From Lutraria lutraria (lineage: Eukaryota > Mollusca > Bivalvia > Venerida > Mactridae): 64,000 nucleotides of DNA. The notes beneath the pieces are model-generated. The model worked only from the letters and a program-made list of their open reading frames with translations, was not told the origin of the DNA and made no database searches. Position 1 is the stretch's first letter. Each line of letters begins with the position of its first letter. The stretch lies in contig OZ026851.1 of assembly GCA_964023205.1 (NCBI GenBank), positions 15,169,637-15,233,636 of the forward strand, written 5' to 3'. The position numbers and the translations under genes are program-made. Shown here piece after piece: positions 1 to 52,943 of the stretch.

Positions 1-59
1 GTATCAAAGATTAGCACAATTTGAAAGTTTAAACAAGTGGTTTTGTGAAACACAGATGC

Positions 60-312
60 CTCCTAAACACCAACTGGCTGGTAAGACCTATTGACATCAA
101 AATCTTTAGAGGTCATCTACATGTGATGACCCATCTCCACACTCCAAACTGAGGACCTTAGGTCAAATCATTCTCTAACTATATGCTGGGCAAGAATTTT
201 TACTTTAGAGTTGAAGGTCACTGTGACCTTGACCTTGGACCTACTGACCTAAAAATCAATAGGGGTCATCTGCATGTGATATCCAACCATCTTACCAAGT
301 CTGAGGACCATA
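60..312. repeat. Mollusc-type interspersed repeat with internal two-fold structure
   Basis: Two related halves share 'GGTCATCT.CATGTGAT' and end in 'CTGAGGACC'. Between them runs AAGGTCACTGTGACCTTGAC. I recognise this phrase as widespread in mollusc genomes, so this is a dispersed repeat fragment rather than a gene. It lies downstream of exon 5 of the adaptor-GTPase, in its next intron. Confidence 0.7.
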
Positions 313-327
313 CCCGATTTCTTTGAA

Positions 328-538
328 TACAGTATTTTCATTTATTTTCGTTGGGCTCAATTTTCGTGGTTTTTACTAAAATGGCTATTTCGTGGGTACC
401 AAAATTTGTGGATTTTGATTTTTGAAAAGAAATGTCTTATCTCTGCATTTAAATTCATAGGGATTTAATTTCGTGGATGACCCAACCCACAAAATCCACA
501 AAATTATATCCACAACGAAAATTTATGATTCCACAGTA
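328..538. mobile_element. TACTGT MITE, copy 1 (211 bp)
   Basis: Starts TACAGTATTTTCATTTATTT and ends ACGAAAATTTATGATTCCAC+AGTA. The ends are imperfect inverted repeats (TACTGT...TTTTCGTTGG). The interior matches copy 2 at 995-1203 almost throughout. No coding capacity; a non-autonomous DNA transposon. Confidence 0.8.
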
Positions 539-540
539 TG

Positions 541-994
541 TAAATGTTTGAATAAGAGACAATTTTTTCTTTCGTAATTATTTTATTTAATCAGCTATAT
601 CAATGTAAATACTTCAGTATACAGAATATGTGAAAGTGCATAGTATCCCTTCTCTTTCAAATAGTTTATCTTGGTTCTTTACCATGGCCTGAATAAAGCC
701 CTTTTAGAAACAATACTTGGCTAGGTAGCTGGGAAGGGGACACTGAAAAGCATCCCTGATAAATTTGAAAGGCTAAGTTGAGACTTACATAATAATTTCA
801 GGGCCCACATTTGGTCGACTTATACAGTAATTTTTCCGTGATCTTATTGATTTTATTCTTAATTTTTTCATAGATCGTGTCGTCACCGTGTTGTCACCAT
901 AATTTGTGTTGTCACCGTAATTTAAGGTGGCAGGTGGGGTTTGAGTGGGTTTTAGGTGACCAAATTTGCATTGTCACCCAGACAATGTACTGTA
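541..994. other. No gene seen; short local GTTGTCACC repeats
   Basis: AT-rich. At about 880-985 the phrase GTTGTCACCGTAATTT recurs in variant form three to four times. Nothing else supported. Confidence 0.5.
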
Positions 995-1203
995 TACTGT
1001 ATTTTCATTTATTTTCGTTGGGCTCAATTTTCGTGGATTTTATTAAAATCGCTATTTCGTGGGGACATAAATTCATGGATTCTGATTTTTGAAAAAATGC
1101 CTTACCTCAGCATTTAAATTCGTGAGGATTTGATTTCGTGGATGAGCCGAACCACGAAATCCATGAAATTAAATCCCCAACGAAAATTAATGATTCCACA
1201 GTA
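995..1203. mobile_element. TACTGT MITE, copy 2 (209 bp), abutting an exon
   Basis: TACTGTATTTTCATT at the left, ATGATTCCACAGTA at the right. In minus-strand terms the element begins four nucleotides after the exon 5 splice junction, so donor positions +5 onward are transposon sequence. Confidence 0.82.
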
Positions 1204-1207
1204 TTAC

Positions 1208-1408
1208 CTGAGTCTGTGAGTTTCATCATCGTCCATATAGGCAGATCCAGGTCTATTCTTAGTCCAGTGTCCTGTCTTAATGTTAAACTGACATTGTCGC
1301 ACATGGATCTCAATCCCATTTGTACTTCCTACTTGCGTGAATGGTTTACCCATAAGTCTCTCTGTTAAGGTCGTCTTCCCGGCTCCATGGTGACCAATCA
1401 CCATCAAC
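1208..1408 (-). CDS. SH3/SH2-Roc adaptor-GTPase, exon 5 (P-loop of Roc/Ras-like GTPase; gene continues off left edge)
   Basis: Acceptor TTCAG|G at 1409 and donor CAG|GTAATA at 1207; enters and leaves in phase 2 (201 nt, symmetrical). Residues 387-453 begin RLMVIGHHGAGKTTL: residues 392-399 fit Walker A GxxxxGK[ST]. STNGIEIHV follows, matching the switch-I/early beta-strand region of Roc GTPases, then QFNIKTGHW. Switch II (DxxG), the guanine-specificity motif and any COR, LRR or death domain must lie left of base 1. I assign it to the exon-4 gene because the split Arg codon joins in frame and the linker-to-P-loop sequence reads naturally. The intron between them is about 10.7 kb. Alternative: exon 5 belongs to a separate nested gene; less likely given phase and continuity. 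Confidence 0.82.
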
Positions 1409-2474
1409 CTGAAGTTAATAAAAATATTTCATGGATTAACAATTGATAGAATTTTTTACAAATACATACTTGAATATCAATCAACATTTCTCTTACTTCT
1501 TAGGCCTGTAGGTAGCAATTTCTGATTGAGGTAGGGGCAATTTTAGATTTTGTCTGACAGTGGGGAGTGGCGAAGGGGGAGAATATAGCCATTTATTTTC
1601 CCTTTTAAAAATTTATAGGAGAGCTAAGCATCAATTTATACATCAATTCACAGGGCCCACAAGTCCCTCCACATGCTCAAACAATCATACTGAGTGAACT
1701 AAATCAGTACCCTTTATCATGCAGCGATTTTTTTTTTCCTAATTGGGAAAGGTACCGGTACCAGACAAATTGGGAAAAATTTGCGACTTTTGACCAAAAT
1801 TGGGAATCTTCTAATAAATTGGGAATTTTTTAAAAACAAAGACATTAGAAACTGCTCCTCTTTGGTTTTTATTTCAGTACTGAATGTTGCAATAAATTTG
1901 ATAAAAAATAACCATTTTTTTATGAAAAAAGAAAATAAAGATCGTAATGTTGTCTTGCCCAAGAGTGGCCTGTGTTCAAAGGATTGACTGTATATATTAA
2001 GGGTGTAACGATACGCTCACCTAATGATACGATACGTATCACGATACAAGGTGAATGATATAATTTGTATCACGATACTCATCTCTAGATGAAAAGACTG
2101 TATAAACTGTTCAAACTTTATTATAACTTCACAACATTACATGAAATAAAATGCAAATAAATGTAAGCTAATTTTTTTTTTTTTTTTTTTTTAGCTTTTA
2201 CGTTTGTTTTAGTGCCATTCTTTTCAATGGTCCTAAACCAAAAATGGGTCCATATTTTGAACTTAAATGTCCATGGCAGTGACTTTCATTCGGCGAACGG
2301 GAATATTCCGTACCGTGCCGGGTTATGCAACGTATTGTGAACCGAACCGTGAGCAAATGACTGGCTTTAAACCGTTCAACGGTACAGTTGAATCTCGTTT
2401 GAGATAAACAAGTACTGTATAACTATATATGTTTCAAAGTATTTGTGTACACGCCCATACAGTAGCCTTTATTT

Positions 2475-3744
2475 AAACAAGAGGGCCATGATGGCCCTAT
2501 AAATGCTCACCAGGAGAAAAGGTCATTTGGAGATTAACATTGTTGAAGTTTTCTATACGAGTCCAAGTAAGATCAAGTGACCGATCTGGGCCGTTTTTTA
2601 TCCCATGGCCATTATATGAACAGATTTTAAAGAGGTCCATTAGACAAAGCTAGATACCAAATATCTTAGCTATAGGCCTTGTGGTTTCGGAGAAGAAGAT
2701 TTTTTAAATTTTCCTATATAAAATAGAATAAACCCCAGGGCAGGGCCAATTTTGACCCTAGGGCAATAATTTGAACAAACTTGGTAGAGGTCCACTAGAT
2801 AATGCTACATACCAAATATCTTAGCTCTAGGCCTTGTGGTTTCGGAGAAGAAGATTTTTTAAATTTTCCTATATAAGTCTATATAAATCAAGTGACCTCC
2901 AGGACGGGGCCAATTTTGACCCTAGGGCAATAATTTGAACAAACTTGGTAGAGGTCCACTAGACAATGCTACATACCAAATATCTTAGCTCTAGGCCTTG
3001 TGGTTTCGGAGAAGAAGATTTTTTAAATTTTCCTATATAAAATAGAATAAACCCCAGGGCACGGCTAATTTTGACCCCGGGGCCATAATTTGAACAAACT
3101 TGGTAGAGGTCCACTAGACAATGCCACATACAAAATATCTAAGCTCTAGGCTTTGCGGTTTCAGAGAAGAAGATTTTTTTAATTTTCCTATATAAGTCTA
3201 TATAAATCAAGTGACCCCCGGGGCGGGGCCAATTTTGACCCTAGGGCAATAATTTGAACAAACTTGGTAGAGGTCCACTAGACTATGCTACACACCAAAT
3301 ATCAAAGCTCTAGGCATTGTAGTTTTTGACAAGAAGATTTTTTAAATTTCCTATATAAGTCTATGTAAAATCAAGTTACCCCCGGGGCGGAGCCAATTTT
3401 GACCCCAGGGGAATAATTTGAACAAACTTTGTAGAGTTCCATTAGACAATGCTACATACCAAATATCTCAGCTCTAGGCCCTGTGGTTTCAGACAAGAAG
3501 ATATTTTAAGTTTTTTCTATTTGTTGCCATAGCAACCAGAATTTTTAATGAAATTTAATTTTTTGAACAACTTTGAAAGGGGACCACCCAAGGATCATTC
3601 CAGCAAATTTTGGTTGCAATCGGCATAGCGGTGTAGGAGGAGATGTTTTAAGTAAACATGGACGCCACGTAATCGTAACGACGCACGATGGACGCAGGGT
3701 GATCACAAAAGCTCACCCTGAGCACATTCGTGCTCTGGTGAGCT
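2475..3744 (+). repeat. GGGCC-ended interspersed element, copy A (internal ~160-bp tandem units)
   Basis: Begins ACAAGAGGGCCATGATGGCC and ends in the hairpin CTGAGCACATTCGTGCTC within GCTCACC...GGTGAGC. The interior has about five units of ~160 bp marked by 'AATTTTGACCC.AGGG' at about 2749, 2909, 3067, 3228 and 3388, and 'TTTCGGAGAAGAAGATTTTT'. Copy B lies inverted at 59382-60662. Probably a non-autonomous DNA element; class not established. Confidence 0.8.
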
Positions 3745-4024
3745 AAAAAACAATGCATGTATGATTACGTTTCGAATAAAACATATGCATACGTAGAGAA
3801 GAAACAAAATAATTATGTATCTATTCATAATAATTAATATCAACAATTATTGTCCCAACATAAAATACTTATTTCCGAAATTTGTTGAAAGAATTAAAAA
3901 AAAACGGAGCGTCTATAGTCCGACAACGACCTGTGAATGATCAAAGATCAGCTAAGTCCATTTTGTAGGGTGGGTGGCTTTTCGGAACGTTTCGTAGGTT
4001 TCCGTAATATATAAATATCAGTTA

Positions 4025-4130
4025 TTTGACCGTCATAGCTGAGACTAAGTGCGTAGCCTGATCGGTAAAGGCGCCAACCATTTTACTTTTGAAGCCTAGT
4101 AGTCAAGATGCTATGGGTTCGGAACACATG
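4025..4130 (+). repeat. Possible tRNA-derived SINE head
   Basis: TAGCCTGATCGG resembles a pol III A box and GGGTTCGGAAC a B box, about 60 bases apart. No recognisable cloverleaf was worked out. Tentative. Confidence 0.3.
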
Positions 4131-5544
4131 TGAACGTTTTTCCTTTCCATTTTTATTTGATATTTGGCATTTTATTATTGCAAAATTTTATTTCAATATT
4201 TGGAATGAATTTCATATGTATTTCATTTAATTTCATTTCAGGTAATTTCATGAAATTTCAATTACTGCGTTCATAAGCAGTATCTGTACTTGAGCCACTG
4301 TCAGAATCTAATAATTTGTTTCATTATATTAAGTTATATAACATGACATCCTCTACATACTTAGGAACATTATTTGAACAGAATTTGATTTTGATTGCAT
4401 AAGATATATATACCTTTCAAAACATAAATGCACCGAAATCACGAGCAATGCATTATTTGAAAAACACAATTCAGTTTAATAATGTTACTAGTGCGGCGCA
4501 CTGATTTCAGGGCCACATAGCTAGGCCTTTTATGTAGTGGTCTACAAATATAAGAGGCCAACAGTGGCCTACAAATGTAAGGTCGTGTTTAGTAATGTAC
4601 TTGGTCATTGTATTACTTATCCCTATTTTAAAGAATGGAACAGTCCATGACCTTCCGTCACGACTCACTGCTCGATTTCTATCTATAGCTTTACATATTT
4701 TCGGATCTGTACGCATTCCCTACATAATGTAAGATGAATCTGTTCGTTGCAACGTCGATCACGCTCTCGGAATTAATTATTTTTATCAAGCTAAAATCAT
4801 TTTACTATGATTGGAATCCGACACTATCATAGGTGGCAAGTAATCGTACTCAATTTTCAAGTTAAACCTACGAGTATCCTAGTATTCGGATACTCATCGC
4901 AGCCAAAGTTATGCGTGGTGCGTATTTGTTTACCTTACCTACCATAATTTTAGTTAAGTCAAAAAACAGGTATGATTATCATGCTACACTACACGTGTGC
5001 TCTCTGTTTGTCACACGGTTATAAATCTCCCGGAGCATTTAAATTGTTCAATTAGCAAAATGTCATGATAGGTGTGAAAGCGTCCATTGTTCGCTGATCT
5101 GCTACAACTTTGAGATAAACAACTCAAACTACATGCTAATTAGAGTCACGGGGACAAAAATTTAGTTTGACATAAACGAAATTTTGAGATAAGTGAATTG
5201 GAGGTAAGCAGATTAATTTCATATAGAGAAAGAACTAAAAAATCGGGACCCAAAGAAACAGTTTGACATAACCAAAATTTTGATATAAGCGAGTTTGACA
5301 TAACGACATTCAACTGTATATCGTTACACCCTTAGTATATATTATCAATTACTCGAAAAAGATTTAAATAAATATCACATTCTGCATGTATATTTTCATT
5401 GTTTACACAAAAATAAGACATATAAGTGTTTGTATTTTTGTGAAAAAAGCAAATTGTGTTCAAGGTTGTTCTAATTGAGAAATAATTTAGCAAAAAAAGG
5501 AGTAGAAAAGTGGAAACAGTGGAGAGATGAAATTATCATCCATC

Positions 5545-5832
5545 ACATTACTTGAGATAAAGCATCACATAACTTGAGACAAGTATCACATGACTTGAGA
5601 CAAAGCATCATATCACTTGAGACAAAGAATCACATGACTTAAGACAAAGAATCACATGACTTGAGACAAAGTTTCACATGACTTAAGACAAAGAATCACA
5701 TGACTTCAGACAAAGTATCACATGACTTAAGACAAAGTATCACATAACTTAAGACAAAGCATCACATGACTTCAGACAAAGAATCACATGACTTCAGACA
5801 AAGAATAACATGACTTGAGATGAAGCATCCTA
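5545..5832. repeat. 22-bp minisatellite (satellite 1 of 3)
   Basis: About 12 units of 22 bp with core ATCACATGACTTGAGACAAA; variants change GAG to AAG or CAG. Begins a run of three unrelated arrays inside intron 4. Confidence 0.85.
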
Positions 5833-6009
5833 GTTTGGGAAGTACACAAACAGATACAACAAGACTTTTATCACAGAGGAAACGCAAGGGACACAGATAC
5901 AGCTAAACTCCATTAACAGTAACCTGAATAAAAAGGTCACAATATGAACACTGGCCACTCTATAACCAAACAGTTATGGATGTTACAAACTAAACAAATC
6001 TCCAAATAT

Positions 6010-6530
6010 AGGTCAACTGTGTTATCATGTCACCTGTTTAATGAGGTCAACTGTGTATAAATGTCCAAGTGTTTTAAGGTCAGCTGTGCATAAATGTCAA
6101 CTGTGTTTTAATGTCAGCAGTGTATTGATAAATGTAAATTATGTATAAAGATCAACTGTGTTTTTAGGTCAACTGTGTATAAATTTCAACTAGGTATACA
6201 AGTCAACTTTGTATAAAGATCAACTGTGCATAAACGTCAAATGTGTTTTAATGTCATCTGTGTACACAGGTCAACTGTGTATTTAAGTCAACTGTGTATT
6301 TAAGTCAACTGTGTGTTTAAGTCAACTGTGTACACAGGTCAACTGTGTATTTAAGTCAACTGTGTATTTAAGTCAACTGTGTATTTAAGTCAACTGTGCA
6401 TTTAAGTCAACTGTGTACACAGGTCAACTGTGTATTTAAGTCAACTGTGTACACAGGTCAACTGTGTATTTAAGTCAACTGTGCATTTAAGTCAACTGTG
6501 TACACAGGTCAAATGTGTATTTCGGTCATA
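6010..6530. repeat. 17-bp minisatellite (satellite 2 of 3)
   Basis: Core GTCAACTGTGTATTTAA. The left part is diverged and variable in spacing; from about 6260 the units are nearly identical, with interspersed GTACACAG variants. About 25-30 units. Confidence 0.85.
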
Positions 6531-6612
6531 TTTCATCTCTTCATGCATTGACCCTAAAGACGTCTCATAAAGGGAGCCAGTTGTTAATAAAACAACTTGA
6601 GACATTACGAGA

Positions 6613-7931
6613 GAGATTGTTCATTGTAATTAAGATTGTTCATTGTAATTAAGATTGTTCACTGTAATTAAGATTGCTCATTGTAATTAAGATTGTTCAT
6701 TGTAATTGAGATTGTTGTAATTAAGATTGTTCATTGTAATTAAGATTGTTCATTGTAATTAAGATTGTTGTAATTAAGATTGTTCATTGTAATTGAGATT
6801 GTTCATTGTAATTAAGATTGTTCATTGTAATTAAGATTGTTGTAATTCAGATTGTTCATTGTAATTGAGATTGTTGTAATTAAGATTGTTCATTGTAATT
6901 AAGATTGTTGTAATTAAGATTGTTCATTGTAATTGAGATTGTTCATTGTAATTAAGATTGTTCATTGTAATTAAGATTGTTGTAATTCAGATTGTTCATT
7001 GTAATTGAGATTGTTGTAATTAAGATTGTTCATTGTAATTGAGATTGTTGTAATTAAGATTGTTCATTGTAATTAAGATTGTTGTAATTAAGATTGTTCA
7101 TTGTAATTCAGATTGTTCATTGTAATTAAGATTGTTGTAATTCAGATTGTTCATTGTAATTGAGATTGTTGTAATTCAGATTGTTCATTGTAATTGAGAT
7201 TGTTGTAATTAAGATTGTTCATTGTAATTGAGATTGTTGTAATTAAGATTGTTCATTGTAATTGAGATTGTTCATTGTAATTAAGATTGTTCATTGTAAT
7301 TAAGATTGTTGTAATTCAGATTGTTCATTGTAATTGAGATTGTTGTAATTAAGATTGTTCATTGTAATTGAGATTGTTGTAATTAAGATTGTTCAATGTA
7401 ATTAAGATTGTTCATTGTAATTAAGATTGTTCAATGTAATTAAGATTGTTCATTGTAATTGAGATTGTTGTAATTGAGATTGTTGTAATTAAGATTGTTC
7501 AATGTAATTAAGATTGTTCAATGTAATTAAGATTGTTCAATGTAATTTAGATTGTTCAATGTAATTGAGATTGTTCGTTGTAATTAAGATTGTTCATTGT
7601 AATTAAGATTGTTCATTGTAATTAAGATTGTTCATTGTAATTGAGATTGTTGTAATTGAGAGTGTTCATTGTAATTAAGATTGTTCATTGTAATTGAGAT
7701 TGTTGTAATTAAGATTGTTCATTGTAATTAAGATTGTTCATTGTAATTAAGATTGTTCATTGTAATTAAGATTGTTCATTGTAATTAAGATTGTTCATTG
7801 TAATTAAGATTGTTCATTGTAATTAAGATTGCTCATTGTAATTGAGATTGTTGTAATTAAGATTGTTCATTGTAATTCAGATTGTTCATTGTAATTCAGA
7901 TTGTTCATTGTAATTCAGATTGTTCATTGTA
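6613..7931. repeat. 19/15-bp mixed-unit minisatellite (satellite 3 of 3), 1.3 kb
   Basis: Two interleaved unit lengths: AGATTGTTCATTGTAATTA (19) and AGATTGTTGTAATTA (15, lacking four bases). Positions of AAG/GAG/CAG variants and short units recur in blocks, for example around 6720-6860 and 6860-6990, suggesting higher-order duplication. Confidence 0.9.
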
Positions 7932-8538
7932 AAAGAGACTGTGCTTTAGAACTGAATCATGCAACAAAGTGGAAATAGGCAGAAGAAAACAACAACTGAT
8001 GGAGGAACCATGAAACAAGTTGACAATATAATACATAATCTTACCTCAGAGGACATACAGACAGAAACTAAAATATACATATAGACTCATTTCATTACTG
8101 AAATAATAGTCTTGAAAACTATTTATAAACACAAAAAATACACGGTTACAGGCACAGGTAAAAAAAAATTACCATATTTTGGCCATATAGGCTACTTATA
8201 TATAATAAAATTTTATTATATAATTTTATCACATGCCCATGCCGTTTTGGCCGTGCCATAAAAACGATATGGCACGGCCGTGCATATAATATTATGTAAA
8301 TGACGTCACGAAGTAACGTCATGAACTTGATGAAGCATAGACATTGATTGGTGCATGTTTTTCAAAATTATAACTTCACATGAATAATGTTGAATTGATT
8401 TTAACAATTTGAGTAAGCAAAAATACTGTTTACATCGTTAGATGTTCACACATTTCTTATTTATGATGTTTCATTATGTAACTATTTTTGTGCTCCTGAT
8501 CAAAAAGCCTTATTACGCCTGTGTCACTCTTTTGTTAT

Positions 8539-10290
8539 TACGAGGGGTGACACAAAAGTTTTGTCACTGCTTCGATTATGCTAAAATGTAACGTCAGATT
8601 GAGTTAGTTTTGCCATATATAAATGCACCAATATGTTCTTAATTATTTTGAACAAAAAAGAACATACTTTCACTAAAAACGCGCTCGCAGGGAGTGTTGC
8701 AATGAACCCTCTGTGACGCACCCGCCGCACGCCGAATTTACAGAATACATTATTTTGCTTACCATATTTGATAATTTAATTACTACAAAAATAACGTGCA
8801 AAATCAGACGTAGTTTTCCTGACGTGACGTCATGTCATACAGTAAGCAGCAGTTAAATTTCTAATGACGTCAATGCACGTTAACGCTTTCTAAAGCCAGT
8901 TGATTGTAAGCCGTTGGAAGAAAAAAATGTCGCAACACGCAATATTACATTTTTGCTACACGCTCGGAAAATCGCCTTTAGAAACAGTAGAAATGGTAAA
9001 CGGGACATATGGTGATAAATCAGTAAATAGAAGACTTGTTTATAGATGGTATGAACGATTTCGAGAGGGAGATGAGTCCCTGGAGGATCACACAAGGACA
9101 GACGCGAACGTCAACGTTGTTTCCGACGCAATTGAGGAGGATCGGCGTATTACTGTTCGGACACTCTCTGAACGCACGGGTTTCAGTTACGGTACTGTGC
9201 AGCATATACTCACCGAAAACTTGAAGATGAGACGTGTGAGCGCTAGGTGGGTGCCTCGTTTGCTCACTGATGAACAAATGTTACGGCGCGTGCAAGAATC
9301 TGAGAAGTTTCTAAGGCGGTACAATCGAGAGGGTGATCAGTTTCTCAAAAAAATTATCACAGTTGATGAAACCTGGCTTTTCTACTACGACCCGGAGACC
9401 AAAATGCAGAGTAGCCAGTGGAAACGAGACAGCTCCCCTCCTCCTAAGAAGGCGCGTGTGTCCAGGACGATAGGCAAACACATGTTTATTGTGTTTTTCG
9501 ACATGGATGGAGTTGTATTGAGTCACGCCGTACCGAAGGGACAATCCGTCAATGCATCCTATTATTCATTTAAGTCGATCATACTGAGTACTAAAGAAAT
9601 ATTAATAGTTATGAATTAAATAAAACACATTATTTATTAAGCTTGTGTTTCAATTGTACACTTCAGGTCCTGACGCGTGATCTGATGATGGCGCTGCGGA
9701 AGAAACGGAACCACTTCTACACAGACATCGATGGTTGTATATTACACTATGACAAAGCCACGCCACACACTGGGCATGAGACACGTTTGAACATGGATGT
9801 CCTCGGGATACAGATACTTTCCCACCCGCCATACAGCCCGGACTTGGCTCCGTGCGACTTTGCTCTGTTTCCATATCTGAAGGGAGAGCTAAGGGGGCAA
9901 TGTTTTGATAACCTACAAGAACTGCAGACAGAGAGTAACCGCATTCTCTCTAGACTCCCATCCAAATGGTTTGATAAAGTGTTTCGGAAGTGGATTGCAC
10001 GACACAGGCATTGTATTGAGTGCGCTGGTCACTATTTTGAGAAGGAGTAACGCTACGGCATCGAGTGAATTGTAAAATAACGTTGTTGACGTCGTTGGTG
10101 TGCGGCGATGGTCGCTCATATGTTTCAGACAATACATTGTAATTTATGTAAGTATTTGTTACTTGTACACCAAATTTTGTATAGTATTTTGTTATTCATT
10201 AATTTACATGTACACCGACTTTGATTGTTATATCTTAAATACAGGCCGAGTTACAGAGGCAGTGACAAAACTTTTGGATCCCCGCTCGTA
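8539..10290 (+). mobile_element. mariner-family transposon, 1.75 kb
   Basis: Left terminus TACGAGGGGTGACAC...CAAAAGTTTTGTCACTGC and the inverted right terminus GCAGTGACAAAACTTTTGG...CTCGTA share the 18-base core AAAAGTTTTGTCACTGC plus CGAG ends. A TA dinucleotide lies at both edges, as expected for the Tc1/mariner superfamily. It carries the interrupted transposase described separately and lies inside intron 4 of the adaptor-GTPase gene on the opposite strand. Confidence 0.88.
8927..10050 (+). pseudogene. mariner transposase, frame-broken by a 98-bp insertion
   Basis: The ATG at 8927 opens an N-terminal helix-turn-helix region (HAILHFCYTLGKSPLETVEM, then VYRWYERFREGDESLEDHTR), continuing in one frame to 9568. 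The catalytic domain has the first Asp in ITVDETW, the second in LHYDKATPHTG and the third in SPDLAPCDFALFP. There are 34 residues between the second and third, so the class is DD34D mariner. Between the codons for YYS and VLTRDL (9569-9666) lie 98 foreign bases containing a stop and AATAAA, which shift the frame. The second half is open to the stop at 10050. Host-domesticated status is unlikely with both terminal repeats still present. Possible alternative: the insert is an unconventional intron, since it ends CTTCAG, but it has no good GT donor at the right place. Confidence 0.85.
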
Positions 10291-10367
10291 GTAGCAATGT
10301 CAAACAGGTATGTTTGTTTTTGCCGTATTTTCAGGGTATGTGATAAAAAGAATATTAAATTTGTGTA

Positions 10368-10476
10368 GATTCCGTCTTGAATTCATTGAACTCATTGAAT
10401 AAAACAGTATGAAGCTCACCAAAAACTCGCTTCGTACTGTTTTATACAACTCGTTCAATAAATTCAATACGGAATC
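10368..10476. repeat. Imperfect long palindrome
   Basis: GATTCCGTCTTGAATTCATT and AATAAATTCAATACGGAATC form the outer stem; ATAAAACAGTATGAAGC and GCTTCGTACTGTTTTAT form the inner stem around a short loop. Foldback element end or small MITE. Confidence 0.75.
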
Positions 10477-11407
10477 CACTTTCATTTAATATCCTCTATG
10501 TATGTAGCCTATACAGCCAAAATATGGTAAAAAAAAATTTGTATCCAATACCTGTGGTTATAGCACTGTATGATAAGTACAAAATACTGGAACAGCTAGA
10601 TGTAGATGACTTCAGGTGAGCCATCTTAAAGGTTATATGAGAGGAAATGTTACATTAATATTTAAAAGATATTTGAAGGAAAAAATAAATGGCTATATGA
10701 CTACATTGAACCCAAACAGAGGTAAACAAAAAGACTATCAAAAAAAAAAGAATTAAGTTTTATTAAATAATTCAGCAGACAGTTTAGTCATGCACTTTGA
10801 TTATCAAAACTTAAAAATATGAGTAAATCAATATTATAGTTTAACTACATAATACAAAATAGATTTAAAGTCCCATTAGCATTTTGCTATAAATATATGT
10901 ATGTAAAAAACAAACAATTGCTGATATTATCCCAAGATAATAATTACCGACGAAACAAGCCATTTTTCTTCTAAAAACACTCATATACGCTGTGAATTTT
11001 GCTTTGTAAACTTGAAATATATAGAGCGCATAACGTCACTTTATGCCGTGTACATAATATGACTGTGGAAAAACACAGCTGTTCTTTAAATAGTATTTTT
11101 TTCAATATCATTGAAAAAAATATGATACAGGTTTTGGAAACATTTTTTCTTGCTATAAAGTATGCACGAGAGGAAAACACACCAGATTCCTCTGTTATAT
11201 GACAAATAGAAACTATTACGACCGACACATTTATATGCTTATGGGACTTTTAAGATGTTATCAGATGCTAAAAATATACTATAAGTAGAACTAAACACAT
11301 ATAATTAGTAACTATCAAAGAAAAAAATACAGATTCATTCAAATATTTTATAACATCAAGATACATTAGAAATGCTAGTTTGATCATGAAATCAATAAAT
11401 TGAGGGT

Positions 11408-12065
11408 CAGTCAGGGCTCTCATGTGACATGTGGCATTTTGACTCTTTCAGAATTTTTTAGTAGAACATTCTGTTGACCCTTTAAATAATTATCAGCTAA
11501 GGGTCACTTTTGACTCCTTAAAGGGGCATGCCCAGGAACTGCTGTGTCTTTTTTTTCGTACACCAAAAATGCGTTTGTCACTTGTAAAACTAATTATTAC
11601 CGAAAAGTCAAAAAAGAATGTCTGCTCAAAAATTACCCTACAACGCGCGCGTCGGTATTCGTTTGTCGGTTTGAATAAAAGGCTTCCAGCCTTTTATTGA
11701 TGACAACGATATTTCCGGTACGTCTGAGTGATTAACTGAGCATGTGCGCTGCCTTTCACGTGAACATTACATGAGAAATACTTAACATTTCAGTTTGTTG
11801 ACATTTTTTCCGCGATATTTTCGGTATTGACAGATACCGAAAGGGTCGAGTTGTGAAAATGACGAATAATTTCTGAGGCCGAAATCGGCAGGTTTTATAA
11901 ATCTTGAAATGTGTATTTTGAGTAAACAAGCGGGATGTTTTGTAAATATTTTACAGGGTTTTCATTAATTGATTTAGGCATTAAAATGATACCAATTTGA
12001 TTGCTATTTGAGACGCTTCAGTTCCAGGGCATGCCCCTTTAACTTCTCCTACCTAATGAGAACCC
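11408..12065. mobile_element. Possible older element carrying the TTAA MITE
   Basis: AGGGCTCTCATGTG near 11408 and CTAATGAGAACCCT near 12052-12065 are inverse-related and flank the TTAA element. Only the ends support it. Confidence 0.4.
11522..12038. mobile_element. piggyBac-like MITE, 517 bp, flanked by TTAA
   Basis: Inverted ends AGGGGCATGCCCAGGAACTG and CAGTTCCAGGGCATGCCCCT. TTAA lies directly outside both ends (11518-11521, 12039-12042), the target duplication of the piggyBac superfamily (family knowledge). No transposase. A partial second copy, also next to TTAA, is at 16464-16625. Confidence 0.82.
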
Positions 12066-12154
12066 TAATTATACCTTAGCAACACAGCATTTTAAAAATT
12101 TGGCTTTTATAATAATTATTTCAAAATCAATTTTGAGGGTTGACTAAAAAGTAC

Positions 12155-12407
12155 CTTATATCCCTAACATGCTCCTTTCCTTCCTTCAAAGCCTTGAAAT
12201 ACATTTCTATAGAATCCATGTCCATCTGTTGAATTTCTTCAGGTAAAGATGTTTCCTTCCTTGACAACGGGAACAAAACACGGACGCACTCCTCATGGGA
12301 CGTCCAAAATCTTGTCTCTTGTTTATAATGGTCAACAAGTTCTAAAATACTGGTAAACTTTGGTAATTGTGGGTCAGCCCCTGTTGTTATTTGGCCATGT
12401 GAGTATG
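12155..12407 (-). CDS. SH3/SH2-Roc adaptor-GTPase, exon 4 (end of second SH2, helical linker)
   Basis: Acceptor CTTGTAG|C at 12408 and donor AG|GTACTT at 12154; enters phase 1, leaves phase 2. Residues 303-386 complete SH2 (AYSHGQITTG, then KFTSILELVDHYKQE, the usual final helix), then a linker with TSHEECVRVLFPLS, and a predicted helix from about 355 (LPEEIQQMDMDSIEMYFKAL) ending KEHVRDIR. An amphipathic helix ending in '(N/D)IRLMV.G' directly before the P-loop is typical of the Roc/MFHAS1-like GTPases expanded in molluscs (family knowledge). No adaptor domain is left incomplete, so the intron after this exon divides the protein cleanly in two. Confidence 0.88.
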
Positions 12408-12604
12408 CTACAAGTAAGAATAAAATAATCTTATAGTCTTAAGTCTAACAAGAAAGAGGGATCTTAACTGGCTTTGAAAAAGGTGAATTTTTTTAACAAA
12501 GAAGTACTTTTTCTATGGTGTTCAATGACACACCAAGATCATCTGGCCACTTCCTGCATTAATTTAATAGAGGAATGACACCCAAGTGTGCACCTGGGTA
12601 TTTA

Positions 12605-12750
12605 CAGTCTTTGAATTAGTCGGTTGCCCGGCTGCCTGAAAGGATTTTTTCCTTTTTTAAGTTCTCATTCAGACAACCTATTTTTTGAGAGTTTTCTTCA
12701 TAAAGTATATTGGCAGGCAACCTGCCACAAAAAACTAATTCAAAGACTGG
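12605..12750. mobile_element. 146-bp MITE with CAGTCTTTGAATTAGT ends
   Basis: CAGTCTTTGAATTAGT at 12605 and ACTAATTCAAAGACTG at 12735-12750 are perfect inverted repeats. The interior phrases GATTTTTTCCTT and TTCATAAAGTATAT recur in the degraded copy at 57260-57400. Lies in intron 3 of the adaptor-GTPase gene. Confidence 0.82.
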
Positions 12751-13172
12751 GGTAAAACCAAACTTTTTGTAAGCCTCTTGAACAGCTTCATCAATTTTTT
12801 ATTATTTCTGGTCTAGGTTTTTTATTCATTCAAACTCAAGAGCAATGATAACTAGTCAGGGACCACAACAATGGTAGCCATGTTCGTAACATCTGTTTTG
12901 AATTTTTATATTGTATTCTGGAGAGACAAGCTATGTTATTATACCTCAAGTGACTTATTTACTCTATAGTCTTATGTGACGTCAAAGGGTGACAATCCGT
13001 AATGTTACCCTCTGACATTACATTTCGGCCCGCTTGCCATAACAAAACTGCCCTCACGCGCTCACGCGATTTTACCGGGTGTCGAATTTTAATCCATCTC
13101 TGTCGTATCGAATACTAACCTTGTCTAGACACTTTAGGCACTTTAGTAGAATATACTTGTAGTTTGACATCC

Positions 13173-13322
13173 GGTTTTGCAGTAGACATTTTGACAGCAA
13201 AAGTAACTATGGTGTCAGAAAGAAGCTTCGTTTCAATTTCTATTTATATATATATATTTGTTAACATGTTTGTTGAATTTAGTGTCTTTCTTAATTGTTT
13301 TTTTTTTGTTCGGTATAATAAA
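13173..13322 (+). repeat. Dispersed repeat shared with 21399-21630 (copy 1)
   Basis: TTGACAGCAAAAGTA, TCGTTTCAATTTCT, GTTAACATGTTTGTTGAATT and TTCGGTATAAT recur in the same order and orientation at 21399-21630. Both copies keep one frame open through the first 70 bases (FA.D.LTA.V.M..ER.FVSIS). Confidence 0.65.
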
Positions 13323-13324
13323 AT

Positions 13325-13465
13325 AAATATCACATCCCACATAGGGTGATAGAACGTAATGTTCACCCTTGACAAAGTAATGTCAACCTCGGCTAACGCC
13401 TCGGTCGACATTACTTGTCTCGGGTGAACATTACATTCTATCACCCTATGTGGGATGTGATATTT
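13325..13465. mobile_element. Foldback (snapback) MITE, ~140 bp
   Basis: Arms AAATATCACATCCCACATAG and its inverse CTATGTGGGATGTGATATTT enclose further inverted TAGGGTGATAGAA..GTAATGTTCACCC sequences. The spacer is about 20 bp (AACCTCGGCTAACGCCTCGG). The whole unit can fold into one hairpin. Confidence 0.85.
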
Positions 13466-13981
13466 ATATAATGTCATACAATCAACCTTCAATCAGAATG
13501 ATTCTAGACTTATTGATCATCCGATAGTTGGATTTTCAACTAAGCTTTAAAATTAACCAGCCTAAGACCAGAACACAATCAGATTCACATCTCAGACTTT
13601 TAAGGTCGAATGTTCAAAGCTTGGAGAGGTGTGGCATTTCATTCATTTAAATAACAACTTGAACAGTGATCCAGATAATTTTTGCGGGCCATGAGTATTT
13701 CACTCTTTTAAATTGATGTGTTAAACAGCAAAATAAAACCAGTTAAATAAGTATTTTGCAATTGAACATACTTTTTATTAATTAAAAATAGATTTGGTTT
13801 CTTCGCTAATGGCTTATTGCTAGCCACCATGTGTTTACAATAGTTAACCCTCTGAACTACAGTCACCATAACGAAGAAAACTTAATTTCTAAGCAGATAT
13901 GACCCGGTCTGAACACTTTTGTTAAAACTACATCCAGTCTGAAAAGTGGAGAAATCCCTGGTGTTGACTAAATTAGTTTAC

Positions 13982-14175
13982 CTAGAGGTACATGTACAAT
14001 TTGGTCCGGACACCAGACGGACAGGGCATACATCCCTAATTTTGTAGTTCTCTCTCTAATCAAGAATGTACCATCACGACACGTTTTGTTCAGCATTCTC
14101 TCAGCTTCATCTCTCTCTATCTGTCCATGAAACCATTGAGGTATATAACAGTCCAATACATAACCTGGTACATAT
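13982..14175 (-). CDS. SH3/SH2-Roc adaptor-GTPase, exon 3 (end of SH3, start of second SH2)
   Basis: Acceptor TTACAG|A at 14176 and donor CTAG|GTAAAC at 13981; enters phase 2, leaves phase 1. Residues 238-302 finish the SH3 with GYVPGYVLD and begin a canonical SH2: WFHGQI at 252-257, a DEAERML helix, then GTFLIRER with the phosphotyrosine-binding Arg278, and YALSVW with VHVP before the exon end. Of the two SH2 domains this one is closest to Src/Grb2-type consensus. A tRNA-derived SINE sits immediately upstream of the acceptor (about 14215-14450), so the branch-point region of this intron is partly SINE-derived or close to it. Confidence 0.9.
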
Positions 14176-14214
14176 CTGTAACATACAATAATATAAATTA
14201 TCTCTTTTGTTTGT

Positions 14215-14450
14215 TTTTTTATATCGGGTTTTACACCCCTTTTCAACAGTCAGAGTCATATGAGGTGGACAGTTCACCTAAGCATCGTTCCTGGGAAGAA
14301 CCAGTACTAAACTACTATCCTCCGTAAGCAACTGCCTACGTTCTCACATAAAGAGACACGGTCGGTAGCAGGTTTCGAACCACACAACCCTCTATCAGTG
14401 ATTTGAAGTCAGCGACCATAACCACTGGACCATGAAAGCGGGTCTAATAT
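14215..14450 (-). mobile_element. tRNA-derived SINE, ~235 bp
   Basis: On the minus strand the head has a pol III A box (TGGTCCAGTGG) and a perfect B box (GGTTCGAAACC), followed by a non-tRNA body including TTCTTCCCAGGAACG and a tail GGGTGTAAAACCCGATAT. It ends about 40 bp before exon 3 of the adaptor-GTPase gene, in the same orientation. Confidence 0.65.
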
Positions 14451-14786
14451 AGCACTGTGACAGCAATTTACAATATGCAGTGATAAGTAACATCACTAAC
14501 TAAATGAGAAACAAGGTAACTTACATGAAAAACTAAATACACAACCTTGAACATAATATTCAGAGCCACATTGTGCAATTTTTGTTTTCAATTGTGTCAG
14601 AAAATTGAGTTTTTCATAGTACAAAAAACAAACTTTGTTTCTTCAGCAGCACATGTAAAACACTTTTTAGATTAACTCTATCATATAGATATCATTGTGC
14701 AGGCCTTTTCTTATGACATACTTATAACCAGTCTAAAATCTATATTTTAGTACAGACGACCAGTCAGAAATACTATTTTTCCTTAC

Positions 14787-14931
14787 CCTTCCTGGTCATT
14801 CTCATCCCTCACTATGAACCAGTCTGGATTTCTACAAGCTCGTATCACAGAGTATTGCTTCTTTTTTACAACAGACAAACATAACATATTGATTGACGGG
14901 AAATCATCAAACGCCACAGCGACATTTCCAG
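14787..14931 (-). CDS. SH3/SH2-Roc adaptor-GTPase, exon 2 (second SH3)
   Basis: Exon bounded by TTTCAG acceptor (14932-14937) and GG|GTAAGG donor (14786). It enters in phase 1 and leaves in phase 2. It encodes residues 190-237 with VAVAFDDFP (equivalent of the ALYDF motif), a basic strand VVKKKQYSVI, the ligand-binding Trp in NPDWFIVRD, and the start of the C-terminal G-Y-V-P motif completed by the next exon. This is a much more canonical SH3 than the one in exon 1. A competing plus-strand reading frame covers the same bases but has no domain signal; the minus-strand reading joins its neighbours without frame breaks. Confidence 0.88.
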
Positions 14932-15129
14932 CTGAAACAGTTTATAAAAATGGTTTTGTATTAAATCTTAGATTGATAAATATTGTAACTGAATTACTTC
15001 AAAACCTCTCAAAATTTAACAAGAGTGCAGAACTGTCACAAAATGTGCCTATAATCCTAAAGTGTTTAAAGCAATCTTGTTGGTCATCAAACTTGGCCAA
15101 TAATATACAATGCCAAACAACAATATAGT

Positions 15130-15275
15130 TATTTGACTAATTTTGGATAATTCAAGGGCCATGATCCAGAAATGCGACGAGAGACCTGGCCGGTTATCAA
15201 ACTTGCACGGGATATAACGCCAATAAATTTGTGATGAAGATCATCGGATAAAAACCATGCAGATACCATTTTAGA
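15130..15275 (-). repeat. Mollusc interspersed repeat fragment
   Basis: Plus strand reads AATTCAAGGGCCATGATCCA, then CTGGCCGGTTATCAAACTTG and GTGATGAAGATCATCGGAT. I recognise this wording as a common dispersed repeat in bivalves. The 103-residue open frame over it is repeat-derived, not a gene. Confidence 0.6.
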
Positions 15276-15454
15276 TCTGTAGCCCTCCCACCATGGGTAT
15301 TCCCCTAATACTTCCCATCTTTGACGAGTATATAAAAACCAGATGGGAAGAAAGGGAACAGTTTGACTGTTGGACAGAGAGAGAGTTCCTGTTAATTGTC
15401 TTCTTTTTGTTGATTCAGTGGCCATTATGCTGGTAATCAAACTTAGCTAGCACA

Positions 15455-15549
15455 AATTTCAAAATCAACGAATTAAAGTCCCCACGAAATAGCCATTTTA
15501 GTAAAAACCACGAAAATTGAGCCCAACGAAAATAAATGAAAATACAGTA
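15455..15549 (-). mobile_element. TACTGT MITE, copy 3 (5'-terminal fragment)
   Basis: Minus-strand reading from 15549 is TACTGTATTTTCATTTATTT and matches the first 80-90 bases of copies 1 and 2, then diverges. It lies 15 nt into intron 1 of the adaptor-GTPase gene. Confidence 0.75.
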
Positions 15550-15564
15550 AGAGAATAAACATAC

Positions 15565-16132
15565 CAACTATCCTCATCTGTATAGATTGAAGAGTGATGA
15601 CATTTCCAATATTCACAGTAGGTAGATTAAGGTCAGAATTCTTTAACCAATCCCCAAGGCATCCATCCAAAACTTTTTCATTAGTACATTTGTTGATAAA
15701 ATTTGGTATAGATTGATACTGTATCCCATTGTATTCAATTCCACCTCCACATTTAGAGAAACTGTAATGAATCACGTTTTTAAATTTTGCACTGATTACA
15801 ATTTTATCAGCTTCACGTGAATTATAGCGCAGAAGAAATGTCCCATTCGATTTGTCTGCCAAGATTCTTTCTGCCATGCGAGTGGTAAAATCGCACAAGA
15901 AGAAATCTTCGTAGAGATAAATATCAGCCGGATGTACATGAGACGAATACACTAATCCCTGAATGTTAAATCTATTCTCAACCAATAAGATTAAATTTGA
16001 TCTCTGATCTATCACAGTTAAGATTTCTCCTTTAATTATCGGCAAGAAGTGTTCCTCGTCTGGGTTTGTGGCCGGAGCATGAACCGATCGACTGGCTATC
16101 ACTTCATCCTTAGGATCATATGTTTTAGCCAT
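15565..16132 (-). CDS. SH3/SH2-Roc adaptor-GTPase, exon 1 (start codon; SH3-like + first SH2)
   Basis: First coding exon of a multi-exon gene read leftwards and continuing past base 1. Start chosen at the ATG at 16132: an in-frame TAA lies three codons upstream. Residues about 10-68 look like a divergent SH3 fold (PIIKGEILTVID, then GLVYSSHVHP), without the usual ALYDY or central Trp. Residues about 72-165 are an SH2 domain: GTFLLR carries the phosphotyrosine-binding Arg102, and VIHYSF supplies the conserved His region. The donor is G|GTATGT at 15564 and leaves phase 1, which the next exon completes as Ala. The family role known for SH3/SH2 adaptors is linking phosphotyrosine and proline-rich partners in the cytoplasm; the actual partner here is unknown. 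Reading through the donor would add a short tail encoded by a MITE that begins 15 nt downstream. SH2 call is sure, first SH3 moderate. Confidence 0.88.
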
Positions 16133-25445: not shown

Positions 25446-25518
25446 GCCCGATTAGCTCAGTTGATAGAACATCTGACTTGCAAGCAGGAGGTCGTAGGTT
25501 CGAGCCCCACATCGGGTA
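25446..25518 (+). tRNA. tRNA-Ala(TGC)-like sequence, probably a pseudogene or SINE head
   Basis: 72 bases plus discriminator A. Acceptor arms GCCCGAT/ATCGGGT pair fully (G-U first pair). D arm GCTC...GAAC has one mismatch. The anticodon loop CTTGCAA gives anticodon TGC (Ala), but the stem closes with an A-G mismatch. T arm GTAGG-TTCGAGC-CCCAC has one mismatch. A-box GATTAGCTCAGTTG and B-box GGTTCGAGCCC are good. The 3' flank resembles that of the related sequence at 57078-57149, which favours a tRNA-derived repeat over a functional tRNA. Confidence 0.55.
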
Positions 25519-26440: not shown

Positions 26441-27599
26441 GCACTCTACATCACTTATCTTAATAATAACACCGAGTTGACCATATAAGATATTCCACCG
26501 AGCCCGTGAGAGCACGGGCACTACTCTTCTTGGTTTAGAGAATGGCACGTATATGTCTGAACGCATGACATTTCCTCCATGCGTCGATTAAGTTCTAAGG
26601 GGCAGACCAGGACATGTAGCTTATTAGAATAGAGCTCTACCACTCATATTTACCGTTATATAACTAACGGAAACATGTGATCTTTTCTGACGTCACAAAT
26701 GGATTAATTCTAATAATTAGCCACCATTTCATAACAAATTCAGTGTTTGAATTTAAAATTAACCTCCGAACGCCGGTAAACTAAGGCGGGAAAAAAGCCC
26801 ACACCATTTCCGTCCGATGTCCGGGAACCTTTTGTACGCAAAGTAACCATGAATACTAGTATTTTCGCATGAAATGCCAAATATCGAACGATTCAATTAC
26901 TTTAACTTGTCATCGGTGCGTTAAGTAGATGCTCAACAGTGTAATATTAGCTTTTTATGAGTGACCACACATCGTAGCAGTTTATTTGTAAACCTAACAT
27001 GGACCTATTAATCATATGAGCCACGGCGTCATTCGCTGTATTAACCAATTAAATAACTCTGGTTACTTTCTCTTTGATGTGGTCCGTGTCTATTGCAAAG
27101 AAATAAGGGTAGTTATGCATACATAATTCACACAAATCACCTGTATTTGTTGCTTAAACAAGAAATGAAAAACTTGACATGGTTAAATATATGGAGAAAT
27201 ATTGACATTTGTCACGTAAATGTTTATATATTAGGTTTAAAATTCATTGCCAAACAAGTTTAACAAGACAGTTTTAAATCAATTTTATTGGCCTCTAATA
27301 TGTAGTTGCAAATTCCGTTTTGAAAAGAGCTTAATTCGTATAAACACCGCAGATTTATAACAATTTTACGAAGAAAGCACTTTGTGACAATGATGACGTA
27401 ATTTCGTGCACTTAAATGACTTGGATCAGAAATTCAAAATGCATTTAAGTTTCAAAATTGTTGCACACCAATTTATTCCTGTTCTTATTAACACAGGAAA
27501 ACATTATTTATCAGTCATCAGTAAATATAGTCCAATTAGTTAGACTGTTTGAGACGGTGAGACACTTTTCGAGTTGCCCCCGTCCCACACGGATGACTT
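26441..27599. other. Intergenic DNA, no gene seen
   Basis: No supported coding or RNA feature. Confidence 0.5.
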
Positions 27600-27649
27600 G
27601 TCTGTACAAAATCTTTGATGCACTGCAACATGGAACGGGAATCAGTTTA
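27600..27649. mobile_element. AACTGGTTCCCGTT MITE, partial copy
   Basis: CTGTACAAAATCTTTGATGC then GGAACGGGAATCAGTTT matches the family in inverse orientation. It abuts the 42-bp minisatellite. Confidence 0.65.
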
Positions 27650-27677
27650 TCTCTCCGGTAACCGGTTGATTATAATA

Positions 27678-28139
27678 GCCGTATTTTCCTCTCATTCCAG
27701 TAGCCACAAATGTACAATGGCCGTATTTTCCTCTCATTCCGGTAGCCACAAATGTACAATGGCCGTATTTTCCTCTCATTCCGGTAGCCATAAATGTACA
27801 ATGGCCGTATTTTCCTCTCATTTCGGTAGCCACAAATGTACAATGGCCGTATTTTCCTCTCATTCCGGTAGCCATAAATGTACAATGGCCGTATTTTCCT
27901 CTCATTCCGGTAGCCACAAATGTATAATGGCCGTATTTTCCTCTCATTCCGGTAGCCATAAATGTACAATGGCCGTATTTTCCTCTCATTCCGGTAGCCA
28001 CAAATGTATAATGGCCGTATTTTCCTCTCATTCCGGTAGCCACAAATGTATAATGGCCGTATTTTCCTCTCATTCGGGTAGCCAGTTGTGTACAATGGCC
28101 GTGTTTCCCTCTGACTCCGACAGCCAGTTGCCGTATTTG
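27678..28139. repeat. 42-bp minisatellite, ten units plus a diverged eleventh
   Basis: Unit starts GCCGTATTTTCCTCTCATTC and recurs exactly every 42 bases from 27678 to 28056, with a diverged unit at 28098. Because 42 is divisible by three, three frames stay open across it (a 14-residue repeat on the plus strand, two on the minus). No start context, splice signals or codon bias supports translation. Confidence 0.9.
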
Positions 28140-28202
28140 TCTCGACCCCGGTGGCTTTCATTCGCGGGTTCGTCCGTACGTGCAATGTCTACTAGGATTT
28201 AA

Positions 28203-31044: not shown

Positions 31045-32054
31045 TATATGCAAACTGAACAAGCCATTATGTGACCTTTCAACAAACATTTGCACGAATT
31101 TCTTGATGTGGAATTGTTACAGAATTTGGTTGGCATTAAGCATTTTGAAAAAAAAAACAGCAACACCAAACAACTCGTCACTTTTCGGGTAACTATCAGG
31201 GAAAGGTTTTCTATAATAATATGGTGTTCATTTTCCTGAAATGTGATTGGAGGATCAGTGGTGGTACGGCACGCAATGGCTTTAATCCATCCGTACAAAG
31301 CATTCCCATTGGTTGATTTAAACCGACCAATAGTTTTATTAATGTCTTCTTTTCTATTTGGTCCCCGGCTTACTAATCTGACTGCAACAGGAAAACAGGG
31401 AGCCATGACATGGGGTGATTTTAGATAATCAGCATGTCTGTTCAGTCGGCATTGAAAATTCTTTCCGTTTATCCTGCTGCCGGCGGGTAAACAGGAATAA
31501 ATTGGACGAACTTTTTCTCGAAAAAAATACGTTTACAACATTGTGTTATGTTACACCACATGTTTTGTCTGGCTGTTTATCGAATGACAAACAGGTATAT
31601 CTATTTTATACATGATATTAGCAGTCATTAATATTATTGTTCCCGGAGGCACTAATTACTAACTCCAGGTATTTGTAAGACTGTGTTTAATCAACGACTC
31701 AAATAACATTTTCCACGCCCCCACAAACTTAACAAGATTACAAAACCAACTTTATACCTCTGCCAATTAGTCAACACTTATTCAATGAGGAACTTGGAGT
31801 AGATGAATAGGATTGGCATGGAAACCTGGGTTCACCTGCACTACATGTGTTTAGTATTTAATACAACATTCAGCAGCTTAATTGATCAATTATCAGTTTT
31901 ATTGTTTGAATATGCATGTGTCTGCACTATTAACTTATGACAAATAATGCTTATTTATTATCATAAGCAGATGAAGTTTATACATTGCTCACAATTAAAG
32001 CTCGATAATTGAAATAACGTGATAAATGTCCTTGTAAAATCGGCTTACTAGCTC
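31045..32054. other. Intergenic DNA with one unexplained open frame
   Basis: A minus-strand frame from 31406 to about 31215 starts MAPCFPVAVRLVSRGPNRKE and is not visibly repetitive. I do not recognise it. Lacking splice or domain evidence I do not call a gene. Confidence 0.3.
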
Positions 32055-32850
32055 TGGTCACTACAACAACAACAATCAACAACAACACTAGAAGTAGAAA
32101 CAATAGAAAGAACAACAGAAGAGGTAACCACAAAAACAGCACCAGCAACAGAAGTAGAAACAACAACAGAAGTAGAAACAACAACAGAAGTAGAAACAAC
32201 AAAAACAGCAGCAACAACAGAAGAGGTAACAACAAAAACAGCAACAACAACAACAGAAGAGGTAACCACAAAAACAGCAGCAACAACAGAAGTAGAAACA
32301 ACAACAGAAGAGGTAACAACAAAAACAGCAGAAGAGGTAACCACAAAAACAGCACCAACAACAGAAGTAGAAACATAAACAGAAGAGGTAACCATAAAAA
32401 CAGCACCAACAACATAAGTAGAAACATAAACAGAAGAGGTAACAACAAAAACAGCAGCAACAACATAAGTAGAAACATAATCAGAAGAGGTAACAACAAA
32501 AACAGCAACAACAACAACAACAGAAGAGGTAACCACAAAAACAGCAGCAACAACAGAAGTAGAAACAACAACAGAAGTAGAAACAACAAATACAGCAACA
32601 GCACCAACAACAGAAGAGGTAACCACAAAAAAGCAGCAACAACAGAAGTAGAAACAACAAAAACAGCACCAACAACAGAAGTAGAAACATAAAAAGAAGA
32701 GGTAACAACAAAAACAGCACCAACAACAGAAGTAAAACATAAACAGAAGAGGTAACAACAAAAACAGCGGCAACAACATGTAGAAACAACAGAAATAGCA
32801 ACAACAACATTAGTAGAAACAGCAACAACTAAAACAGCAACATCGTATCA
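32055..32850. repeat. CAA/CAG-rich compound repeat, ~0.8 kb
   Basis: Alternating blocks ACAACAGAAGTAGAAAC and AACAGAAGAGGTAACCAC with AAAAACAGCA. Open frames on the minus strand are poly-Leu/Val artefacts of the repeat. Confidence 0.88.
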
Positions 32851-51359: not shown

Positions 51360-51379
51360 CAGTTCAGCACTACAAAATA

Positions 51380-51447: not shown

Positions 51448-51453
51448 CACACT

Positions 51454-52929: not shown

Positions 52930-52943
52930 GTAAACTTACTAGC

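Follow-up and report, generated by a model that had tools for sequence, protein, structure and literature searches.

A 2019 review distinguishes three groups of ROCO proteins by their domain order, and SH2 domains do not appear in its available portion (PMC6337361). According to that portion, members of the DAPK1 group carry a Death domain at the C-terminus, after Roc-COR, and lack leucine-rich repeats (LRRs), and MFHAS1 has the order LRR-Roc-COR without Death (PMC6337361). The nearest published mollusc parallel that we found is a paper on the Aplysia immunome, in the available part of which ROCO proteins, alongside TLR- and MyD88-like proteins, are joined to immune adaptor domains, with Death named in a figure legend; these ROCOs carry TIR, LRR, EF-hand or Mbt domains, and SH2 is absent from that part of the text (PMC9334734). 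SH3 and SH2 domains are combined in RASA1 (p120RasGAP), which has two SH2 domains in the order SH2-SH3-SH2, and in Csk and Grb2, each of which has one SH3-SH2 unit. Here we describe a gene of the bivalve Lutraria lutraria that joins these two kinds of protein. It begins in a 64,000-nucleotide stretch of contig OZ026851.1 (assembly GCA_964023205.1, 728.5 Mb; G000:C20:15169637-15233636 in our coordinates), which we call the window, and encodes a protein of 1196 residues with the domain order SH3-SH2-SH3-SH2-Roc-COR-Death.

An initial annotation, made from the letters of the window, had proposed five minus-strand exons joined in phases 1, 2, 1 and 2 into a 453-codon frame, with two SH2 domains, one good and one weak SH3 domain and a helix followed by GHHGAGKT, and had read this as an SH2 adaptor fused to a Roc GTPase. 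All five exons are present at those places (Table 1): the joined frame of 1361 nt is stop-free, exons 1–5 have GT donors, exons 2–5 have AG acceptors, and exon 1 opens at an ATG. Because the window ends within intron 5, the rest of the gene was out of that annotation's sight. A domain search of the joined frame and of the sequence left of base 1, as the annotation had suggested, revealed COR and Death beyond Roc: a COR-A match lies on the same strand approximately 2 kb left of the window, and in fetched flanking sequence exons 6–8 lie 0.1–3 kb left of it and join in phase. The completed gene has eight exons and spans 19.1 kb. The proposed order from SH3 to Roc was therefore right but incomplete, and the Death domain beyond Roc-COR changes the likely output.

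In Pfam, SH2 matches two stretches of the protein above its cut-off (85.4 bits; whole-protein E = 2.9e-24; best stretch at residues 252–330), with the phosphotyrosine-binding arginines at positions 102 and 278. The helix leading into Roc is in exon 4, and GHHGAGKT occupies residues 392–399. Roc scores 48.6 bits against a cut-off of 27 and is directly followed by COR, with COR-A at 58.6 bits (cut-off 35.3); Death scores 39.8 bits (cut-off 22.6) over C-terminal residues 1109–1177, and its nearest relatives in PDB are the Death domains of RIPK1 (E = 2.3e-7), PIDD (9.5e-7) and CRADD (1.9e-6). Neither an LRR family nor a kinase family is among the Pfam matches of the protein or among the 25 listed of 26 families over the seven aligned members described below, and the Pfam scan of the window's protein gave no match to PH, C2, RasGAP or ankyrin domains. 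The protein thus resembles DAPK1 in its Roc-COR-Death part and lack of LRRs, and MFHAS1 in its Roc-COR. It differs from both: MFHAS1 has LRRs and lacks Death, and where DAPK1 has its N-terminal kinase the Lutraria protein has two SH3-SH2 units. DAPK1 also has ankyrin repeats.

Searching a set of 5.8 billion proteins at E-values up to 1e-3 returned 13 proteins. An independently annotated protein from Mactra antiquata, likewise 1196 residues long, is 85% identical over 100% of its length, and because the eight-exon model aligns with it from end to end at this identity, chance is excluded as the source of the model. The other full-length relatives are from Mercenaria mercenaria (73% identity), Mya arenaria (58%), Dreissena polymorpha (53%) and Sinanodonta woodiana (40%), together with P0005 (52%), a 1176-residue frame on a contig of 4,234 bases; this contig is too short for introns of such size, so it is probably a spliced transcript. 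The same domain order is seen in all six, and SH2, Roc, COR-A and Death are each found by Pfam in 7/7 members of our alignment A1, which includes the window's protein and leaves out two of the hits, P0006 (a second model from Mya, which is partial) and P0008 (a Roc-COR protein from Ruditapes). The remaining hits are five LRR- or ankyrin-ROCOs, and a repeat search with the alignment added one further LRR-ROCO and no new family member. In the databases the relatives are named 'hypothetical', 'uncharacterized' or 'non-specific serine/threonine' kinase, and in the case of the partial Mya model 'CRADD-like'; the kinase label looks wrong, because no kinase family is among the matches listed.

Exons 4 and 5 are separated by a 10.7-kb intron containing transposase pieces, as might be expected if two neighbouring genes, one for an SH3-SH2 adaptor and one for a ROCO-Death protein, had been misjoined by phase-compatible splice sites. 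We regard this explanation as extremely improbable. The order recurs in the six full-length database proteins, including the one on the 4.2-kb contig; the database models are mostly gene predictions, in which a shared error is possible but unlikely across such divergence. Moreover, exon 4 alone encodes both the end of the second SH2 domain (SH2-2) and the lead-in to the ROCO part, so the join does not depend on intron 4. Other ROCO loci of this genome begin to align with the protein at residues 344–372, and the SH2-2 model ends at residue 330. These results answer the initial annotation's reservations, which were that exon 4 might splice to a different 3' exon and that SH2 and Roc might be joined in no other species: they are joined in six other full-length proteins, bivalve ones among them. 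Judged from sequence comparison, the fusion is real and common to heteroconch bivalves.

Sinanodonta belongs to the Palaeoheterodonta (Unionida), Mactra and Mercenaria to the Venerida, and Dreissena and Mya to the Myida, the latter four genera all being Imparidentia. By the full-length and alignment searches, family members were found only in these five other bivalve species and as P0005. A search with Sinanodonta residues 232–440 recovered just two of the six full-length members known from the databases, the query being one of the two, and we therefore do not claim that oysters, scallops, marine mussels or other phyla lack the family. Within the L. lutraria genome we counted 27 COR-A and 43 SH2 matches, which are lower bounds for such large families; just one of the COR-A matches has an SH2 match within 100 kb, namely this gene, and in the second-closest pair the two matches are separated by 303 kb. 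The domain arrangement is thus common to at least five other bivalve species, and we found no published description of it in the open-access literature. An SH2-ROCO protein is not named in the titles or abstract beginnings searched there (most subscription journals lie outside this set), nor described in the available portions of PMC8195603, PMC4053784, PMC3934975, PMC3188802 and PMC11593052; within this literature, the initial annotation's statement that no protein of this order has been described holds.

In a tree of ROCO cores, the core of this gene groups with bivalve ROCO paralogues (support 98/97), apart from five LRR-ROCOs; the SH2-bearing proteins are not resolved as one clade in it (45/47). 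An LRR-ROCO on contig C15 was dropped from this tree because its segment was too short, and loci L034, L036, L037 and L045 were not entered. The initial annotation had placed the GTPase with the MFHAS1 kind, an assignment that we abandon because no LRR was found; some of the bivalve ROCOs with which it groups have a terminal Death domain. Paralogues in the genome include a trio on contig C19 that ends in Death, and others on C13, C5, C8 and elsewhere. The C19 trio, the C13 and C5 genes and Ruditapes philippinarum P0008 share the lead-in helix, Roc and COR with our protein at approximately 30–35% identity, and the trio also shares the terminal Death domain. There is no SH2 match within 2 Mb of the C5 COR-A matches or on the C13 and C19 contigs. 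P0008 has no SH2 either, and it continues into what looks like the beginning of a kinase domain (Pkinase, 694–760, below cut-off).

Several paralogous loci are clustered. The three ROCO-Death genes of the C19 trio (L032–L034, G000:C19:15218871-15303179) are approximately 40 kb apart, and two of them are near-identical over the stretch compared; their N-terminal exons were not found. Three near-identical ROCO genes on C5 (L038–L040, G000:C5:7039323-7144322), approximately 50 kb apart, are single frames of 1091–1093 residues with a Death match below the cut-off. At G000:C3:11352346-11355921 and C4:15065932-15069041, Death and COR-A matches share a strand and are separated by 2–3 kb, and each pair probably marks a further ROCO-Death gene.

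We compared the family profile with PDB structures and considered the best 60 of 334 matches. Among these, SHP-2 scores 81.5 bits, PLC-gamma 75.4, Csk 72.8, RASA1 66.0 and Grb2 60.8, and the SH3-SH2 units of Csk and Grb2 each match the family in a single stretch that includes SH3-2, at residues 190–334 of our protein for Csk and 194–334 for Grb2. The initial annotation's comparison with Grb2 thus applies to the second SH3-SH2 unit only, and among the matches listed that unit fits Csk better. The gene differs from both in having two such units, fused to ROCO-Death, and it has no tyrosine-kinase match.

An alternative origin for the N-terminal half is that an SH2-SH3-SH2 block was taken from RASA1, so that the front of the protein would be RASA1 and the back ROCO-Death. 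In the search with Sinanodonta residues 232–440, every one of the 55 non-family hits carries a RasGAP domain, and a profile alignment with RASA1 is collinear over 252 columns (E = 5e-12). However, that search admitted only proteins of 0.55–1.75 times the query length, so Src, Csk, Grb2 and similar proteins could not appear in it, and among the PDB matches listed SHP-2, PLC-gamma and Csk all outscore RASA1. The individual domains also correspond in crossed order, with SH2-1 nearest to the C-terminal SH2 of RASA1 and SH2-2 nearest to the N-terminal one, and SH3-2 fails to match the RASA1 SH3 (E = 0.15). In a tree of SH2 domains, which with 79 columns is an unresolved comb, the family SH2s fall into two exclusive clades (100/100 and 99/97), neither of which joins a RASA1 clade. 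This tree had 13 of the genome's 43 SH2 matches as outside rows, the window's own two as family rows and 8 of 11 RASA1 rows; L059, L065 and L068 (stops) and L069 (length) were omitted, and L067 and L070–L073 were unused. We looked for SH2s branching with those of RASA1 in matching order and found crossed similarity and separate clades instead. In addition, RASA1 differs from this protein in its PH, C2 and RasGAP domains, and the family SH2s are not nested with those of RASA1. The intron positions of RASA1, compared by eye from exon matches, show no obvious coincidence with those of this gene, and we give this no weight. Since the SH2 tree and the domain-by-domain profile comparison speak otherwise, we did not adopt an origin from RASA1, which we consider improbable. 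In the drawn tree Sinanodonta is the first to branch in each of the two family clades, as vertical descent of one fusion predicts. The likely history is a single event, before the sampled lineages of Heteroconchia split, in which an SH3-SH2 reader became fused to a mollusc ROCO-Death gene.

Conservation, measured as mean pairwise identity over the seven members, is uneven along the protein. It is 40% in SH3-1, 52% in SH2-1, 42% in the linker, 52% in SH3-2 and 62% in SH2-2; 71% in the lead-in helix, 67% in the first part of Roc, 36% in the Roc insert (residues 455–560) and 64% in the rest of Roc; and 60% in COR-A, 50% in the post-COR part and 62% in Death. Trp252, Arg259 and His299 of SH2-2 are present in 7/7 members, as are Arg102 and His122 of SH2-1, and the G1 and G3 motifs of the GTPase are likewise invariant, including Lys398, Thr399 and WDFAGQ. 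The functional roles of these SH2 and GTPase residues are textbook knowledge.

We think it fairly probable that this eight-exon (SH3-SH2)x2-Roc-COR-Death adaptor combines phosphotyrosine docking, Roc-COR dimerisation and death-fold seeding, a mechanism that we infer from the observed gene structure, domain matches, motifs and order. The SH2 pair would dock on tyrosine-phosphorylated receptors or scaffolds, probably at doubly phosphorylated sites, and docking would concentrate or release the switch based on Roc-COR dimerisation. Next, the C-terminal Death domains would act as a pair to seed a death-fold assembly similar to those of RIPK1, PIDD/CRADD or MyD88, passing the signal on by like-with-like assembly to an immune or cell-death output. 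The predicted recruitment of the ROCO protein by phosphotyrosine is plausible. In the available part of one study, the paired SH2 domains of RasGAP bind doubly phosphorylated p190RhoGAP and Dok1 with nanomolar affinity (PMC10470053), and in several known ROCOs Roc-COR acts as a switch through dimerisation (PMC6337361).

Several observations weigh against this proposal. Neither SH3 domain reaches a curated Pfam cut-off in the protein (SH3_9 at residues 23–45, E = 0.028; SH3_1 at 224–241, E = 0.035), and SH3_2 gives a weak, sub-threshold match in one of the seven aligned members (E = 0.019). Because these scores are below cut-off we used profile comparison, in which SH3-1 matches SH3-2 with E = 1.7e-6 and the RASA1 SH3 with E = 1.4e-5 (SH3-with-SH2 control pairs gave 0.01 or worse); we read these segments as two divergent SH3 domains, the second better supported, where the initial annotation had one good and one weak. 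In our alignment the alphaA2 position of SH2-1 reads T, T, S, S, A, A, K, without Arg. Position 278 of SH2-2, Arg in five of the seven members, is Lys in those of Mya and Dreissena (P0003 and P0004), both Myida, possibly a lineage-specific loss or change of binding; with SH2-1 lacking the alphaA2 Arg, paired phosphotyrosine binding may therefore not be general. At the place of the G4 Asp the seven members have N, N, S, S, N, E and D, with Asp kept only in Sinanodonta, which makes GTP specificity doubtful. In RasGAP, peptide binding altered the shape of the SH2-SH3-SH2 block and left GAP activity unchanged, according to the available part of the text (PMC10470053), a warning that docking may only localise the protein. 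The whole basis of the suggested immune role is analogy.

Some of these points would suit a scaffold whose Roc-COR has stopped cycling with GTP; its SH2s would localise the protein, with Death acting on its own. The G4 substitutions, the poorly conserved Roc insert and the unaltered catalytic activity of RasGAP on SH2 docking are all consistent with it. But the G1 and G3 residues are invariant and parts of Roc are among the better conserved stretches of the protein, which suggests that the nucleotide still matters, and we consider the scaffold unlikely, though less so than an origin from RASA1. A docking-triggered Roc-COR switch with Death output remains our preferred reading.

The coordinates of the gene, and of other features of the window, are given in Table 1.

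Table 1. Exons and domains of the SH3-SH2-ROCO-Death gene, and other features of the window. Positions are in the window unless a contig position is given; negative numbers lie to its left.
Feature	Position	Strand	Content
Exon 1	15565..16132	-	residues 1-190; start ATG; SH3-1 (~9-72) and SH2-1 (~77-150); SH2 match C20:15185328-15185522
SH3-1, divergent	15917..16108	-	below Pfam cut-offs; profile matches to SH3-2 and RASA1 SH3
SH2-1	15683..15904	-	betaB5 Arg102 and betaD4 His122, invariant in 7/7
Exon 2	14787..14931	-	residues 190-238; bulk of SH3-2
Exon 3	13982..14175	-	residues 238-303; SH3-2 (end) and SH2-2 (first half, including Arg278)
Exon 4	12155..12407	-	residues 303-387; second half of SH2-2 and helix leading into Roc; contains the fusion joint
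Intron 4, 10.7 kb	1409..12154	-	opposite strand carries mariner-like transposase pieces
Exon 5	1208..1408	-	residues 387-454; first part of Roc, P-loop GHHGAGKT
Intron 5, part	1..1207	-	gene continues left of window
Exon 6	-77 to -958 (C20:15168678-15169559)	-	remainder of Roc, with WDFAGQ
Exon 7	-1384 to -1503 (C20:15168133-15168252)	-	in phase
Exon 8	-1785 to -3012 (C20:15166624-15167851)	-	COR, long post-COR part, Death, stop
Overlapping frames in intron 4	8894-10050	+	open reading frames 8894-9619 and 9595-10050; resemble pieces of a mariner-type transposase
tRNA-Ala	25446-25518	+	anticodon tgc (ARAGORN and Rfam)
Repetitive sequence	27597-28202 and 31978-32847		spurious long frames on both strands
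Open reading frames	44527-54193, perhaps from 35463	+	44527-44931, 51998-52333 and 53849-54193; by their motifs, they resemble exons of a Wnt gene

More tentatively, the family may be a separate ROCO class that arose once, before the Unionida/Imparidentia split, in which a double SH3-SH2 reader replaced the kinase or LRR input and Death provides the output. Such a protein would be a one-polypeptide, phosphotyrosine-triggered death-fold signalosome wiring tyrosine-kinase receptors to innate immune or cell-death output. The Lutraria protein itself belongs to none of the three ROCO groups: its input differs (phosphotyrosine) and its output is explicit (Death). It thus offers a natural test of how Roc-COR converts binding into assembly, which is of interest for LRRK2 and DAPK1 as well. 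If the proposed mechanism is right, these bivalves have a direct, hard-wired route from tyrosine-kinase to death-domain signalling within one protein.

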